A stretch of 38,374 nucleotides of DNA from Planctomycetota bacterium (GTDB taxonomy: Bacteria; Planctomycetota; Phycisphaerae; UBA1845), in NCBI GenBank assembly GCA_030616775.1, contig JAUWWQ010000041.1:1-38374 (forward strand). The letters are read 5' to 3'. The notes under the pieces were generated by a model. It saw only the letters and a program-made list of their open reading frames with translations. It had not been told where the DNA came from and did no database searches. The position numbers were made by a program, and so were the translations under genes. Positions 11,889-16,708 of the stretch are shown here, one piece after another. Position 1 is the stretch's first letter. Every line of letters starts with the position of its first letter.

Positions 11889-11930
11889 GCGAATAGCGAA
11901 TTATGAATGGTGAATTATGAATGGTGAACA
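11889..11930. repeat. Degenerate 7-bp tandem repeat (NNGAATN)
   Basis: Six in-phase heptamers: GCGAATA, GCGAATT, ATGAATG, GTGAATT, ATGAATG, GTGAACA. They lie just upstream of the biotin-carrier start codon. The array is in inverse orientation to the one at 11972-12041, so a transcript could fold the two together. Confidence 0.7.
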
Positions 11931-11971
11931 AGAGCGCGGTATGGTTGCGTTCGCCGCCTCTTGTCTATCTC

Positions 11972-12041
11972 CATTCGACGCTTGCTGTTCGGCATTCATC
12001 ATTCCGCATTCGCCATTCGACATTCGCAGTTCGCTATTACC
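11972..12041. repeat. Degenerate 7-bp tandem repeat (CATTCNN)
   Basis: Ten in-phase heptamers including CATTCGA, CATTCAT, CATTCCG, CATTCGC, CATTCGA and CATTCGC, running to within 2 bp of the carboxyltransferase stop codon. Divergence between units with strict retention of the 7-bp frame suggests an old array that changes by substitution rather than by indel. Confidence 0.75.
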
Positions 12042-12043
12042 AT

Positions 12044-13777
12044 CTATCCCGAAAAATCCGCCACCACGCTAAGATCGTGCATCGACCATATCCTGGGGTT
12101 TTTGATTCGTCGATACCCGAAGCTCTGGTAGCACATCTCAACGAGTGTCATCAGATAGTCACGCAGTTCGTGCACCGTCACGATCTCATCCGTGTCCATC
12201 TGCCGGGCGGCCTTGTAGGGGTCCATGTCGGCCTCGATGCGGTCCTCGACGGCCTTCATCCCCGCCTCGACCTCGGCCCGCTCCTTGGGGTCGGTGGTGA
12301 TGATCTGGAAGTTGTCGTCAAGTCTGGTGCGGAAGGTCCCGATAGCCAGCGTCCGACCCTCCATGACGGCCAGGCGGGTCAGCGGCGTGGAGAGTTGCAC
12401 GATGGGTTCGTACGGCAACCCTTCCATGGCATAATAGCCCGCGCCGGAGGCCTTGCGCAAGAGCACCGTGATCATGGGGACGGTGTTCGTGGAGTTGGTG
12501 TACAACAGGTTCGAGCCGTATCCCAAAAGCCCGTGCTTCTCGGCTTCTATACCGATGTCGAATCCGGAGATGTCCTGCAGCCAGATGATGGGGATCCCGT
12601 CGGAGTTGCAGGACCTGGAGAACTGCGAAATCTTGGCGATTCCCTCGCGGTACAGGAGTCCCCCGGGCCGGGTCCGGTCCTTGAGCTCCGGATGAGCCGT
12701 GAGCTTCTGGTTGTTGGCGATGATCCCCACATATAGCCCGTTGATGCGGGCGACGCCGGTCACCATCTCTTCACCAGTATGGGGCATGAGCTCCCAGAAG
12801 AGTGAGCTGTCCACCAGACGGGCGATGATCTGACGGATGTCATAGACCACCCGGTGGTCGACGGGAAGAAGACCGTTGATCTCCCCCGGCAGGAAGCGGG
12901 GCTCAGCGGGCGAGAATCCGTAACGGTAGTATGCCACCGCGCTGGCCGGTAGTTTCTCGACCTCCTGGCGAATGCGCTTGATCATGGTCCGGTCGTCGGG
13001 GACCCGCTCGTCAGCACAGTTGGAAAGATGCACGTGTACGTCCGGCCCGCCGATGGAGAGCGAGGTGATTTTCTGTGACCTGCCTCCCTTCACCAGTGCG
13101 GCACCGGCAATGACCATATAGGCCTGCTCGGTCATGAACAGCTTGTCGGAGATGATGGGCATATAACCGCCGCCGGCGATACAGTCGCCAAGCACGCCGG
13201 CAATTTGCGGAACTCCGTTGGCGGACAGCAGCGAGTTCATCTTGAATATGTATCCCGCCCCTGTCCTGCCCGGGAAGGTCCTGGACTGCTCCGGCAGAAA
13301 GAGCCCTGAACAGTCGACCAGGTAGATCACCGGGACGCGAAGACGCAGCCCGACCTCCTGAGCCCGCTCGATCTTCTCCGGGGTCAGCGGCCACCAGGAA
13401 CCGGATGCCACCGTGTTGTCATTAGCGATCACCACGGTCAGCCGCCCGTGAACGCGTACAAAGGCCGTGATGACCCCGGCCGAAGGAGATGTGCGCGGCG
13501 GTTCCCCGAACTGCAAACCGTAGTTCACGAACGTGTTGATCGGGAAGATGGTCGTTCCGGGATCCTTCAGTATGTCCAACCGCTCCCAGGTGGTGAGTTT
13601 GCCCTTGGCGTGCACCCGTTCGATGTACTTAGGCCCCCAGCCTTGGCGAATCTCCTCCCGGCGCGCCAGGACAACCTCGTTCAGCTTCTCCATGCGCCGG
13701 TGGTTTTCCGTATAAGCCTTCCCGTCGACAGCCTCCTCGATGGGAGTGCCGATGGTATGGAGGATGACTTTTGACAT
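12044..13777 (-). CDS. Acyl-CoA carboxyltransferase, GcdA (glutaconyl-CoA decarboxylase alpha)-like
   Basis: 577 residues with the tandem crotonase-fold carboxyltransferase halves of the AccD/PccB/GcdA superfamily (about 80-290 and 320-540). The second half ([56 protein letters not shown]) follows the glutaconyl-CoA decarboxylase alpha subunit as I remember it more closely than methylcrotonyl- or propionyl-CoA carboxylase beta subunits. The length also fits GcdA (about 590). GcdA moves a carboxyl group between a glutaconyl-type CoA ester and biotin. Here the partners are a soluble biotin carboxylase and carrier, with no GcdB-type sodium pump visible. Likely substrates in this context are 3-methylglutaconyl-CoA/3-methylcrotonyl-CoA (inference). 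AAGGG lies about nine bases before the ATG. Confidence 0.88.
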
Positions 13778-13797: not shown

Positions 13798-13839
13798 AAG
13801 GATGAAGGCGGAAGGATGAAGGATGAAAATGGAAAGAAG
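13798..13839. repeat. 7-bp tandem repeat (AAGGATG), inverse orientation
   Basis: In-phase heptamers AAGGATG, AAGGCGG, AAGGATG, AAGGATG, AAAATGG, AAAGAAG beginning 21 bp upstream of the carboxyltransferase start codon. This is the reverse complement of the CATCCTT unit found at 13885-13905, so the two arrays form an inverted pair around 13840-13884. Confidence 0.75.
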
Positions 13840-13884
13840 CGCGATAGACGCTGTACGTGGTGCTCCTCACGAATGGCCTCTCTT

Positions 13885-13905
13885 TATCCTTCATCCTTCA
13901 TCCTT
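13885..13905. repeat. 7-bp tandem repeat (CATCCTT) at the 3' end of the four-helix gene
   Basis: TATCCTT, CATCCTT, CATCCTT at 13885-13905, continuing as a pyrimidine-rich degenerate stretch to about 13926. The stop codon of the four-helix-bundle gene (13898-13900 on the minus strand) lies inside this array. Confidence 0.8.
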
Positions 13906-14284
13906 TTCTTCCTTGTCCTTTCTTCTTCGCGTTCTTGACACAAGTTGTCAGTATCGCGATAAGTTCGTCGGCCTCTCCCATCAAGTCTCCCATTCGGTCC
14001 TTGGTGAAGATCTCGGATTCGAGGACGAGTTCCAGCCAGTAGACAGTCTCCTCGAGCTCCTGAAGAGCGCCTTCGAGTTTACTGATGAACTCCGCATTCG
14101 ACCGGCTCCGTATACCCTCCCGATAGTGTGCTCCAACGGACGTCCCTGACCGCAGCATTTGTTTCCCGATGACCTGCGCGACTGTGGTCTTCGGCAGCGA
14201 GGAGTACGATCGGATGATCCGAATAGCGAACTGCCTCGTCCGCACCTTCAAATCAACCGGCTCACTCCGAGCATCATCCCTCAT
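13898..14284 (-). CDS. Four-helix-bundle protein (S23 / Avd-like family)
   Basis: 128 residues, the usual size for the family originally found in 23S rRNA intervening sequences and related to Avd of diversity-generating retroelements. Diagnostic features are VRTRQFAIRIIRSYSSLP, QMLRSGTSVGAHYREGI, RSRSNAEFISKLEGALQELEETVYWLELV and the closing helix MGEADELIAILTTCVKNAKKK. It is a basic helical protein thought to bind nucleic acid; its cellular role is unknown. It sits between accC and the carboxyltransferase gene, where it makes no metabolic sense. CATCCTT arrays touch both ends: the start codon lies in a heptamer at 14282-14288 and the stop in the array at 13885-13905. No reverse transcriptase or rRNA is nearby. 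Confidence 0.88.
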   Translation of the reverse strand: MRDDARSEPVDLKVRTRQFAIRIIRSYSSLPKTTVAQVIGKQMLRSGTSVGAHYREGIRSRSNAEFISKLEGALQELEETVYWLELVLESEIFTKDRMGDLMGEADELIAILTTCVKNAKKKGQGRKG

Positions 14285-14326
14285 CCTTTTTCATCCTTCA
14301 TCCTTCATCCTTCATCCTTCATCCTT
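14282..14326. repeat. 7-bp tandem repeat (CATCCTT), five perfect units plus one
   Basis: Five exact CATCCTT units in a row at 14292-14326 and a sixth at 14282-14288 after a 3-bp interruption. The ATG of the four-helix-bundle gene is the reverse complement of the CAT in the 14282 unit, and on that strand the AAGGATG units upstream could act as its ribosome binding site. Only 7 bp separate the array from the accC stop codon. Confidence 0.9.
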
Positions 14327-14333
14327 GGTTTGC

Positions 14334-15683
14334 CTATCCCAACAACCTCCCAATAAACCCGGTATCGTAGTTCCCTGCTGCAAAGTCCGAGCTTTTCATG
14401 ATCTGCAGGTGAACTGGGATAGTAGTCTTTACTCCCTCGACGCGGAAGGATTCAAGTGCCTTGATCATACCTTCCCGAGCGGCATCCCGATTGGGGCCCC
14501 AGATGATCAGCTTGGCGATGAGGGAGTCATAGTAGGGCGGAATACGGTAGCCCGGGCGCACGTGCGAATCGACCCGGACTTTCACGCCTGGGATCTCCGT
14601 CGGCGGGGCAAACTCCGTCACCTCGCCCGGTGAAGGCTTAAAATCCTCGAAGGGATCCTCAGCATTGATACGGCACTCGATTGAATGCCCATTCATCTCC
14701 ACGTCGTCCTGGGCGAAGGAGAGCGTCTCATTGGCTGCGATCCGGATCTGCTCAACGACGAGGTCGCGCTGGGTCACCTGCTCGGTGACCGGATGCTCGA
14801 CCTGCAGGCGGGCATTGACCTCCATGAAGTAGAGTTGCCCGTCCGAGTTCCGGAAGAACTCGACCGTGCCGGCGTTCTGGTACCCGATCACCCGTAACAC
14901 CCGGCGGAGCTTCTCACCCAGGTCGTGCCGGGTGGTAGGATCCATCACCGGCGAGGGCGACTCTTCGACCAGCTTCTGATGCCGCCTCTGCGCCGAGCAC
15001 TCCCGTTCTCCCAGATGCGCGACATTCCCGAAGGCGTCGGCCATTACCTGGAACTCGATGTGACGACCATCGACAATGTACTTCTCCAGGTACAGGCCGG
15101 GGTTACTGAAGGCCTTTTCCGCTTCCATCGAGGCCTCGCGGTACGCCTGCTCGAATTGCCCCGCCGCATCGACTCGTCGCATGCCCTTGCCCCCACCGCC
15201 CGCGGTGGCTTTGAGCAGGACGGGGAAGCCGATCTCTTTGGCGAGCTTGAGGCCGTCCGCCAACCCCGGGAGCGTTCCCCGCGATCCGGGAATCACCGGC
15301 AGATCCGATTCACGCATGGTCTCCCGCGCGGTGGCCTTATCACCCATCGCCCTGATCGCACTTGCTGGGGGACCGATGAAGGTCATCTTGGCCTGCTCGC
15401 ACAGTTCGGCGAACAGAGAGTTCTCAGCCAGAAAGCCGTAACCCGGATGGATGGCGCAACAGCCGTTCTGTTCAGCCGCCTGGATGATGGCTTCCATATT
15501 CAGGTAGCTGTCGGCGCTTCTAGGCGGTCCGATGCATACCTTCACGTGGGCCTCGTCTAAGTGTGGCGAGCGGGCGTCGGCCTCCGAGTACACGGCCACG
15601 CTCTCGATACCGAGCGTTTTGCAGGCCCGGATCACCCGAAGGGCAATCTCACCGCGGTTAGCCACCAGGACACGCTTAAACAT
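14334..15683 (-). CDS. accC: Biotin carboxylase subunit of an acyl-CoA carboxylase
   Basis: 449 residues, the normal length of free-standing AccC. It carboxylates the biotin of the carrier protein using ATP and bicarbonate. The biotin-carboxylase N-domain starts FKRVLVANRGEIALRVIRAC. The ATP-grasp domain shows the glycine-rich loop KATAGGGGKGM, the EKYIVDGRHIEFQV strand, the RECSAQRRHQK segment and EVNARLQVEHPVTE, and the C-domain has ECRINAEDP. All usual catalytic residues appear present. It is the stand-alone form, with no fused carrier, consistent with separate carrier (11258-11869) and carboxyltransferase (12044-13777) genes. The gene is separated from its natural partner gene by the four-helix-bundle insertion. 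Confidence 0.95.
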   Translation of the reverse strand: MFKRVLVANRGEIALRVIRACKTLGIESVAVYSEADARSPHLDEAHVKVCIGPPRSADSYLNMEAIIQAAEQNGCCAIHPGYGFLAENSLFAELCEQAKMTFIGPPASAIRAMGDKATARETMRESDLPVIPGSRGTLPGLADGLKLAKEIGFPVLLKATAGGGGKGMRRVDAAGQFEQAYREASMEAEKAFSNPGLYLEKYIVDGRHIEFQVMADAFGNVAHLGERECSAQRRHQKLVEESPSPVMDPTTRHDLGEKLRRVLRVIGYQNAGTVEFFRNSDGQLYFMEVNARLQVEHPVTEQVTQRDLVVEQIRIAANETLSFAQDDVEMNGHSIECRINAEDPFEDFKPSPGEVTEFAPPTEIPGVKVRVDSHVRPGYRIPPYYDSLIAKLIIWGPNRDAAREGMIKALESFRVEGVKTTIPVHLQIMKSSDFAAGNYDTGFIGRLLG

Positions 15684-15766
15684 GCGCTATAGAACTCTCC
15701 CGCAAAACTGCCCCAGGAGAACGATTCCAGCAGTCAGTGTATCAACGTTTCGACGTTTTGCCTTTT

Positions 15767-15794
15767 CATCCTTCATCCTTCATCCTTCATCCTT
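15767..15794. repeat. 7-bp tandem repeat (CATCCTT), four perfect units
   Basis: Four exact CATCCTT units at 15767-15794. The array overlaps the last codons and the TGA stop (15773-15775) of the hydratase gene on the minus strand, so the hydratase tail RMKDEG is encoded by repeat sequence. Confidence 0.9.
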
Positions 15795-16582
15795 GATTCT
15801 TCCCCCGCCCACCGCGGCTTCTTCTTATTAAGAAACGCATTCATCCCCTCCTGCCCCTCGTCGCTGACGCGCAGTCGGGCAATTACCTCCGCGGTATACG
15901 GGCCGTTCTCGTCCAGAGAACGTTCGGAAATCTCGCGGATAAGTTCCTTTGAAACAGCCAGGGCCTCGGGACCACCCGTCATGATCATCTCGACCTTGGC
16001 GTCCACCGCTGCGTCGAGTTCATTCGCCGGCACGACTGCGTTTACCAGCCCCATTTCCGCGGCCCGGGCTGCCGAGAAGCGCTCTCCGGTCAGGAAGTAT
16101 TCACGGAGATTCTTCTCCCCCATTCGTTTGAGCAAATAGGGGGAGATCGTGGCGGGAGTGAGTCCGAGTTTCGTCTCGGTGAAGGCGAAGACTGCATCCT
16201 CGGATGCGATGGCGATATCACAGACGGCGACCATGCCGGTCCCTCCGCCGACCGCCGACCCGTTGATGCGCCCGACGACCGGCTTGGGGCAGGCGTAGAT
16301 CTCACGAAGCATCCGGGCGAGGTTGAGTGAGCCCTCGTAGTTCTCCTCGTAACTGTAGTTGACCACCCGCTTCATCCAGTGAAGGTCGGCCCCGGCGCAG
16401 AAGGATGTCCCTTCACCGGTAAGCACGACCAGGCGTATCTCGGGATCGTCGCGGATTGAGGTGAAGATCTCCAGCAGATCTTCGAGCATCTGATCGTTGA
16501 ATGCGTTGCGGACATTCGGGCGATTCAGAGCGACGCGCCCAACAAAGCCCTTGCGTGTGAGGCGTACGGTACCGTGGCTCAT
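15773..16582 (-). CDS. Enoyl-CoA hydratase, LiuC (3-methylglutaconyl-CoA hydratase)-like
   Basis: 269 residues, a crotonase-fold hydratase. The FCAGADLHWMK oxyanion-hole sequence (61-71), with the ADLxWM form, is the feature I associate with methylglutaconyl-CoA hydratases (LiuC) rather than general fatty-acid hydratases. The second motif is GSAVGGGTGM, lacking the glutamate of the usual GGGxEL, which as I recall is also replaced in bacterial LiuC proteins. E136 in FTETKLG should be the remaining acid. It would interconvert HMG-CoA and 3-methylglutaconyl-CoA, linking the HMG-CoA synthase module upstream to the carboxylase downstream (inference). GAGGTG precedes the ATG. The last residues, RMKDEG, come from the heptamer array. 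Confidence 0.8.
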   Translation of the reverse strand: MSHGTVRLTRKGFVGRVALNRPNVRNAFNDQMLEDLLEIFTSIRDDPEIRLVVLTGEGTSFCAGADLHWMKRVVNYSYEENYEGSLNLARMLREIYACPKPVVGRINGSAVGGGTGMVAVCDIAIASEDAVFAFTETKLGLTPATISPYLLKRMGEKNLREYFLTGERFSAARAAEMGLVNAVVPANELDAAVDAKVEMIMTGGPEALAVSKELIREISERSLDENGPYTAEVIARLRVSDEGQEGMNAFLNKKKPRWAGEESRMKDEG

Positions 16583-16597
16583 TCACACCTCGACGCT

Positions 16598-16708
16598 GGG
16601 CCGAGAATCATTTCTCGGCCCCACTTTCAACGGCTGGGTGCGAGAAGGGATTCTCGCACCAGCACAAGAAGGGATTCTCGCACCAGCACAAGATTCTCGC
16701 ACCAGCAC
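16598..16708. repeat. Cluster of GAGAA hairpins and 24-bp direct repeats
   Basis: GGGCCGAGAA (16598-16607) pairs with TTCTCGGCCC (16612-16621) over the loop TCAT. GGTGCGAGAA (16637-16646) pairs with TTCTCGCACC (16651-16660) over GGGA. A 24-bp unit starting GAAGGGATTCTCGCACCAGC occurs twice in tandem (16644-16667 and 16668-16691), and a shortened third copy runs 16692-16708. The cluster fills the gap between the DUF35 and hydratase genes, so the operon transcript should carry strong hairpins here. Confidence 0.85.

Follow-up and report, generated by a model that had tools for sequence, protein, structure and literature searches.

S23 genes between inverted heptamer arrays, a probable IVS-like hairpin element in Planctomycetota and other bacteria

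Genes of the S23 (23S_rRNA_IVP) family lie, at most of the loci analyzed here, between two inverted and matched arrays of a short tandem unit, an arrangement seen almost nowhere else. The two arms of a locus change in concert while arms of separate loci have different units, and dispersed copies of the unit are present in the same genome. S23 is conserved as a protein, and its units occupy operon junctions as well as, in frame, the interior of host ORFs. We consider it probable that an IVS-like hairpin element, with inverted 7-8-nt arrays as its arms, carries the S23 gene as protein-coding cargo. Furthermore, the dispersal of the unit and the existence of empty sites point to its mobility.

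The S23 locus of the window

The locus studied lies in a DNA stretch of 38,374 nucleotides from a Planctomycetota bacterium (contig JAUWWQ010000041.1 of assembly GCA_030616775.1), hereafter the window. The genome is referred to as G000, while other G numbers denote related genomes in a set of 60, and L numbers denote loci. On the minus strand, the gene order is HMG-CoA synthase, thiolase, OB-fold protein, enoyl-CoA hydratase, accC, S23, carboxyltransferase and biotin carrier. The relevant features are as follows.

15765-15802, minus strand: further AAGGATG array (TRF), inside which the enoyl-CoA hydratase ORF ends (...RMKDEG)
14334-15683, minus strand: accC, one flank of the S23 gene
14274-14326, minus strand: 5′ arm of seven AAGGATG-type units immediately past accC, the last units giving the S23 ATG (TRF)
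13898-14284, minus strand: S23/23S_rRNA_IVP four-helix-bundle gene, 128 aa (PF05635, TIGR02436, AF2, Foldseek)
13882-13905, minus strand: short direct AAGGATG array covering the S23 stop codon (TRF)
13828-13881, no strand: spacer of about 54 nt from the direct 3′ array to the inverted arm (sequence)
13798-13827, plus strand: 3′ arm, an inverted AAGGATG array just before the carboxyltransferase gene (TRF, inverted alignment, fold)
12044-13777, minus strand: acyl-CoA carboxylase carboxyltransferase, the other flank of the S23 gene
11898-12038, no strand: S23-less heptamer hairpin in the carboxyltransferase/biotin carrier gap (GAATGGT-type array plus CATTCGC-type inverted array)

The ORF between accC and the carboxyltransferase gene is a genuine member of the S23 family, with 73.6 bits against PF05635 (curated cut-off 33.8) and 88 bits against TIGR02436 (curated cut-off 24), which confirms the 128-residue four-helix-bundle gene that an earlier sequence-only reading had recognized here. 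The AF2 model consists of four helices (pLDDT 91, pTM 0.82), and Foldseek matched it to the S23 proteins 2rld and 2gsc (Xcc0516), followed by Avd 4dwl and DGR ribonucleoprotein structures. Between close pairs, the dN/dS of S23 amounts to 0.04-0.19, indicating purifying selection. Xcc0516, which is related to S23, is a pentamer, and Avd is a ribonucleoprotein subunit; to our knowledge, no catalytic activity of S23 has been described.

The whole unit, a hairpin, spans roughly 13798-14326 on the minus strand. As had been noticed from the sequence alone, the start and stop codons of the gene fall within heptamer units, the ATG being that of an AAGGATG unit and the TGA being part of GGATGA in the 3′ array. 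The sequence-only reading had also placed arrays of one orientation at both gene ends. These arrays are detected by TRF, but the whole unit lies on the minus strand, and the inverted array at 13798-13827 had been overlooked. Read on that strand (13827-13798), the 3′ arm is CATCCTT CATCCTT CCGCCTT CATCCTT, the reverse complement of the 5′ arm, and the inverted alignment between the arms scores 57. In a single-strand fold, the outer arms form a closing stem (z -4.5). The direct 3′ array (13882-13905) is missing both from the orthologous copy in G001 and from the copy in G026, the nearest relative, and therefore looks like a local, lineage-specific addition.

A search of the 4.45-Mb genome with AAGGATGAAGGATGAAGGATG, allowing up to 2 mismatches, gave 62 matches compared with 0 for the reversed control, showing that the heptamer arrays of the window are not due to chance. 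Many AAGGATG arrays in this genome are one-sided and lack an S23 gene. Near-identical AAGGATG hairpins occur at L033, L307 and L315 (contigs C31, C68 and C44), in a longer repeated context resembling integron cassette sites.

The congener G001 carries an S23 gene at the accC/carboxyltransferase site as well. This copy is frameshifted, so individual S23 copies do decay, and its arms are still AAGGATG and CATCCTT. The unit at this site thus predates the split of G000 and G001, whose carboxyltransferase genes are 89% identical, and its insertion here is not recent. At E <= 1e-100, this carboxyltransferase gene was found in only 2 of the 60 genomes (G000 and G001). The S23-less hairpin at 11898-12038 likewise has a counterpart at the same place in G001, with drifted units. 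Just upstream of the hydratase gene, at 16643-16708, lies a tandem 24-bp unit, AGAAGGGATTCTCGCACCAGCACA, which is not related to the heptamers. Within the window, no Rfam match was obtained, and PADLOC and PHROGs returned nothing useful.

Inverted arms at S23 loci of other genomes

This genome contains six PF05635 genes, all of which are bracketed by inverted heptamer arrays, with one unit per locus (GGCGAGT, AAGGTCG, GAATGGT, AATTACG, AAGGATG and GTCGATT). Their hosts, some of them named from translations of the neighboring genes, are the pairs accC/carboxyltransferase, atpG/atpD, membrane-fusion protein/CzcA-type RND, ABC ATPase/permease and moxR/DUF58, and the interior of an Eco57I-type methylase ORF.

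S23 is present in 45 of the 60 related genomes. Arms were assessed at 103 S23 loci, those of relatives being partly non-independent, by local alignment of the upstream flank with the reverse complement of the downstream flank. The score had a median of 42, compared with a cross-locus median of 18 and 99th percentile of 34; 68 loci reached at least this percentile, at 55 the own partner flank ranked first of 103, and about one third of the loci had no detectable arms. In contrast, similarity of the flanks in the same orientation passed at only 5 of 103 loci, and the initial model of a cassette between two direct repeats was replaced accordingly. The best lag corresponded to period 7 in 68 upstream and 60 downstream flanks, with period 8 second. 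Arms of one locus match each other, whereas those of different loci are distinct, even where copies share a site, and the S23 ORF in the hairpin loop is usually in sense orientation relative to the host operon.

Among the controls, such arms were found in 0.3% of 3000 random windows and at 2 of 258 genes (0.8%) in 375 kb of this genome. One of these two control genes with strongly similar flanks encodes a RAYT-like transposase (L157 866-1535). Under a fixed criterion, namely an array with an inverted partner within 900 nt, 62 of 103 S23 loci (267 kb) qualified compared with none of 60 control stretches (1.15 Mb), from which it follows that most hairpins in these genomes belong to S23. The number of 7-8-nt arrays was also higher in S23-rich than in S23-less genomes (33 vs 7); since other periods were likewise more frequent in S23-rich genomes, array density was set aside as evidence for the link.

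The cassette bordered by its own repeat, as proposed by the sequence-only reading, is thus strongly supported and general, with empty sites at other loci, but its borders are inverted arms, and it is not tied to CATCCTT, each copy having a heptamer of its own. The two observations named beforehand as speaking against it were not made: other four-helix-bundle genes do carry inverted heptamers in their flanks (6 of 6 here, 68 of 103 in relatives), and conservation of the gene at this position does not extend to all relatives.

A breadth scan with one genome per species gave more than 580 relatives, and sufficient flanking sequence was available for 75 named loci. Of these, 51 have inverted arms that reach the same score, with period 7 or 8, in at least a dozen phyla, including Planctomycetota, Pseudomonadota, Bacteroidota, Cyanobacteriota, Acidobacteriota, Verrucomicrobiota, Omnitrophota, Chloroflexota, Bacillota, Desulfobacterota, WOR-3, Armatimonadota and Patescibacteria. 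The longest arms, in Vreelandella sedimenti (score 219), have a heterogeneous unit order that is copied between them.

Arm concordance, dispersal and occupied sites

Arms at dnaE2 match their own partner with a mean score of 55 compared with 30 in cross-comparisons, and those at atpG/atpD with 46 compared with 23 (permutation p 5e-5 in both cases). At L120, one arm copies the other perfectly over 31 nt of mixed units. Mismatches between arms show no G.U bias (78 G.U vs 70 A.C, p 0.57), and selection for RNA pairing of the arms was rejected for this reason. Arm concordance in the absence of such a bias suggests DNA-level copying between the arms (template switching) or repeated re-insertion.

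Among the S23 proteins compared, the closest to that of the window is encoded in G026 (72% identical) at a non-homologous site, between DUF362-like and ferredoxin/NapH-like genes (names from translations). It has AAGGATG arms too, its 5′ arm being an AAGGATG array like that of the window, and solo arrays in G026 repeat, whole or in part, the unit order AAGGATG-AAGGATG-AGGGATG-AAGGATG of its S23 arms. With at most 1 mismatch, AAGGATGx3 is found in 6 of the 60 relatives, namely the three species of this genus, G026, G007 (one long array) and G040 (weak matches). At L324 in G007 (contig C435), at least 11 perfect AAGGATG units run up to the end of the contig, where a long array may have broken the assembly, and at L319 in G026 (C1 154000-154650) an AAGGATG array is nested in a GAATGCA-type heptamer hairpin. 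Across non-homologous sites, unit similarity correlates weakly with S23 identity (rho 0.12, Mantel p 0.0005), the relation being clear above 55% identity.

Outside the AAGGATG group, the heptamer of the S23 arms was also the enriched dispersed heptamer of its own genome in all 4 genomes tested. GGGATTC gave 352 matches in Dokdonella and 239 in Aquimonas (0-11 elsewhere), AGTTTCG gave 40 in Desulfobacca (0-18 elsewhere), and AGTTAGG gave 119 in a WOR-3 genome (0-5 elsewhere), where the control gave 35. In some genomes, the dispersed arrays are far more numerous than the S23 genes.

The S23 tree groups by insertion site, with one dnaE2 group and one atpGD group and weak support in places. As the trees follow insertion sites, vertical inheritance and loss may account for much of the distribution, and many of the dnaE2 and atpG/atpD copies were probably passed on in place.

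Occupied and empty versions of one site, as known for transposon-like mobile elements, were observed at atpG/atpD and inside dnaE2, by the kind of comparison that the sequence-only reading had recommended for orthologous operons. At atpG/atpD, S23 with matched arms was read in the gap sequence of four genomes (G000, G018, G015, G008) and S23 adjoins atpD by coordinates in six more (G001, G031, G048, G038, G046, G017). The gap measures 10-111 nt and is free of S23 in twelve genomes (G004, G013, G012, G033, G029, G024, G020, G003, G027, G011, G047, G006), and in G014 and G021 it holds a short array without S23. The set of dnaE2 (ImuC-type polymerase) genes comprises 21 genes with both halves, defined by host homology. 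Of these, 13 are empty (linker 45-78 nt), one contains an S23-less hairpin (G030, 261 nt) and 7 contain an S23 unit (540-672 nt).

All dnaE2 inserts are in frame and free of stops, and they are located between the NTPase and finger domains according to Pfam annotation (residues 444 to 653 of the L063 frame); S23 units are likewise present in dnaE2 of three public Phycisphaerales MAGs (L225-L227). Inside host ORFs, S23 is encoded on the same strand in another frame. The host frame is open at 12 of 12 in-ORF loci, partly by construction, while among 91 S23 genes at other places that alternate frame is open in 7, counts that carry less weight owing to common descent. The dnaE2 set, having been chosen by host homology, is a fair test of the open frame. 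The open host frame across the element suggests that dnaE2 units are read through, whereas RNase III excision from the transcript, with no ligation afterwards, characterizes the 23S rRNA IVS.

Further arrangements were observed inside host genes. In G048 (contig C4), two S23 units (L076 and L053) occupy different sites of one dnaE2 gene, the second S23 falling in the S23 clade of the dnaE2 group. The C-terminal part of dnaE2 in G038 (L059) contains another in-frame S23-less heptamer hairpin, with the peptide GQGTGNREQGTE...CSLFPVPCSL. S23 units also lie inside DNA methylase genes (L001, L050, L040/L246, L284), in L001 and L050 just upstream of the DPACGSG motif; the L040 methylase has an S23-less heptamer hairpin where the related gene L284 appears to have S23. 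Insert-free homologues of methylase L001 were considered as an empty site and rejected, with C-terminal matches only at about 45% identity. Near-identical S23 copies on two Calothrix plasmids turned out to be part of a larger duplication with no element boundaries. A search for recent transposition and target-site duplication found no identical or near-identical flank pair with and without the unit.

Mechanism, rival explanations and known systems

In the preferred explanation, a single 7-8-nt unit, repeated in two inverted arrays, makes up the arms, the S23 ORF lies in the loop between them, and the S23 oligomer would bind its own arms. The element may move, or spread its arms, via the hairpin as folded single-strand DNA, a cruciform or an RNA intermediate, with host enzymes carrying out the movement. 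Arm identity could be restored by DNA-level template switching between the arms, that is, quasipalindrome correction, which would fit a copied unit order without G.U bias. Insertion would be tolerated where the element leaves the host frame open or, in operon gaps, where each AAGGATGA unit could offer SD-like, ATG and TGA signals for stop-and-restart translation.

The main rival, which we regard as unlikely though worth serious attention, assumes that heptamer hairpins are primary and spread independently (MITE-like or slippage-born), with S23 genes inserting preferentially in their loops, much as rRNA IVSs are located at the tips of 23S helices. The excess of dispersed arrays over S23 genes in some genomes and the two S23-less arrays or hairpins of the window agree with it, as do the G030 hairpin in dnaE2 and the short arrays at atpG/atpD in G014 and G021, although the latter cases fit either order, insertion or loss. 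However, the arm motif tracks S23 relatedness at non-homologous sites, if weakly, and arrays with an inverted partner, frequent at S23 loci, are absent from 1.15 Mb of control sequence. Insertion of the unit by recombination at pre-existing heptamer arrays is a live alternative.

It is improbable that the unit is an operon-internal RNA regulator, whose arms are selected to pair in the mRNA (for RNase III processing or insulation) and whose stem is bound by S23. Such a role would suit the 63 of 98 scorable loci that sit between two co-directional genes, the closed stem predicted for the window unit and the cleavage of the Coxiella rRNA IVS stem by RNase III (PMC4990558). Selection for RNA pairing should nevertheless favor G.U over A.C mismatches, which is not the case; the patchy presence at essential operons speaks against a needed regulator, and in-frame units leave the host ORF open, so that the mRNA is presumably read through.

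Even less credible is that S23 acts as an Avd-like accessory of a reverse transcriptase (RT) and that units move by RT-mediated retrohoming. The fold match to Avd 4dwl and DGR ribonucleoprotein complexes, the published homology of PF05635 and Avd (PMC10053308) and the sense orientation in transcripts speak for this idea, which is weakened for genome-encoded RTs by the lack of association between S23 and RT genes across 60 genomes (Fisher p 0.23, Spearman 0.01). Eight relatives with at least 4 S23 genes have no RVT_1 match, the single RVT_1 match in this genome is on another contig (C55), and no RT was seen next to S23 genes. Finally, an excess of heptamer repeats is on record for many bacterial genomes (quoted in PMC4692102), but coincidental adjacency of S23 to ordinary slippage-prone simple repeats is refuted by the arm controls (66% of S23 loci vs 0.3-0.8%), by the per-locus match of inverted arms across at least a dozen phyla and by the fixed-criterion comparison.

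The hairpin element with S23 as cargo can tentatively be extended. S23 units could represent a pan-bacterial class of minimal mobile elements, in which one gene for a non-catalytic RNA/DNA-binding protein sits in the loop of a heptamer hairpin that is self-templated and relies on host enzymes for its movement; the dispersed bacterial heptamers would be its arms and S23-less derivatives, and rRNA IVSs would be members that landed in rRNA. Three loose ends, namely S23 genes, over-represented heptamer repeats and rRNA IVSs, would then come together. If this holds, S23 gains a testable function, namely binding of its own hairpin, the heptamer families of a genome can be predicted from its S23 arms, and the gene hidden in another frame of dnaE2 or methylase genes is an unusual element that its host reads through. 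For annotation, peptides such as GTGNREQ and SLFPVPC in bacterial proteins may be translated arms.

Dispersed, intergenic heptamer arrays have been reported before, GGGAATC in Xanthomonas with 70-75 convergent (inverted) pairs per genome (PMC4692102) and TAACTGA in Beggiatoaceae, cyanobacteria and Bacteroidetes (PMC4679880). The passages found in these two papers do not mention a link of heptamers to S23, and no paper joining S23 genes with dispersed heptamer arrays was found among the open-licence papers searched. Here, the heptamer of the S23 arms equals the dispersed heptamer of its own genome. Earlier work also describes S23 genes within cas operons (PMC3936711) and within the rRNA inserts of CPR bacteria (PMC11270868).

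Compared with DGR Avd (4dwl, 8ub7), the four-helix-bundle fold is shared, but no RT, template repeat or variable repeat was seen beside S23. In REP/REPIN-RAYT systems, a gene lies between inverted copies of a short sequence that is also dispersed between genes, as in the units described here. In contrast, the flanks here are tandem arrays whose sequence varies by copy, and the gene is S23 and not a Y1 (HUH) transposase, which is absent from the window unit, where S23 is the only protein. Rickettsia palindromic elements are not known to carry an additional gene in a different reading frame or to be built of heptamers. The present units resemble them in being palindromic inserts kept in frame within protein genes, as described for these elements and coding palindromes in PMC6649704.

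The closest comparison is with rRNA IVSs. The Coxiella IVS, of about 430 nt, contains an S23p ORF between 28-bp terminal inverted repeats, with two to three tandem GACAGAT heptamers just ahead of the S23p start, and the rRNA IVSs of Coxiella and Leptospira are patchy and thought to be horizontally acquired, the Coxiella S23 appearing expendable (PMC4990558). The units described here share the protein family, the S23 ORF in the loop of a terminal-inverted-repeat hairpin and the patchy distribution. However, their arms consist entirely of 7-8-nt arrays, many different units occur per genome, they lie in operon gaps and in frame in protein genes, and S23 is under purifying selection, unlike in Coxiella. 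The window unit has an S23 ORF closed by terminal inverted repeats (14274-14326 and 13798-13827), as the IVS definition asks, and is located in the accC/carboxyltransferase gap instead of a 16S or 23S rRNA gene. By this comparison, it resembles an rRNA IVS hairpin, yet falls outside the IVS definition by its location.
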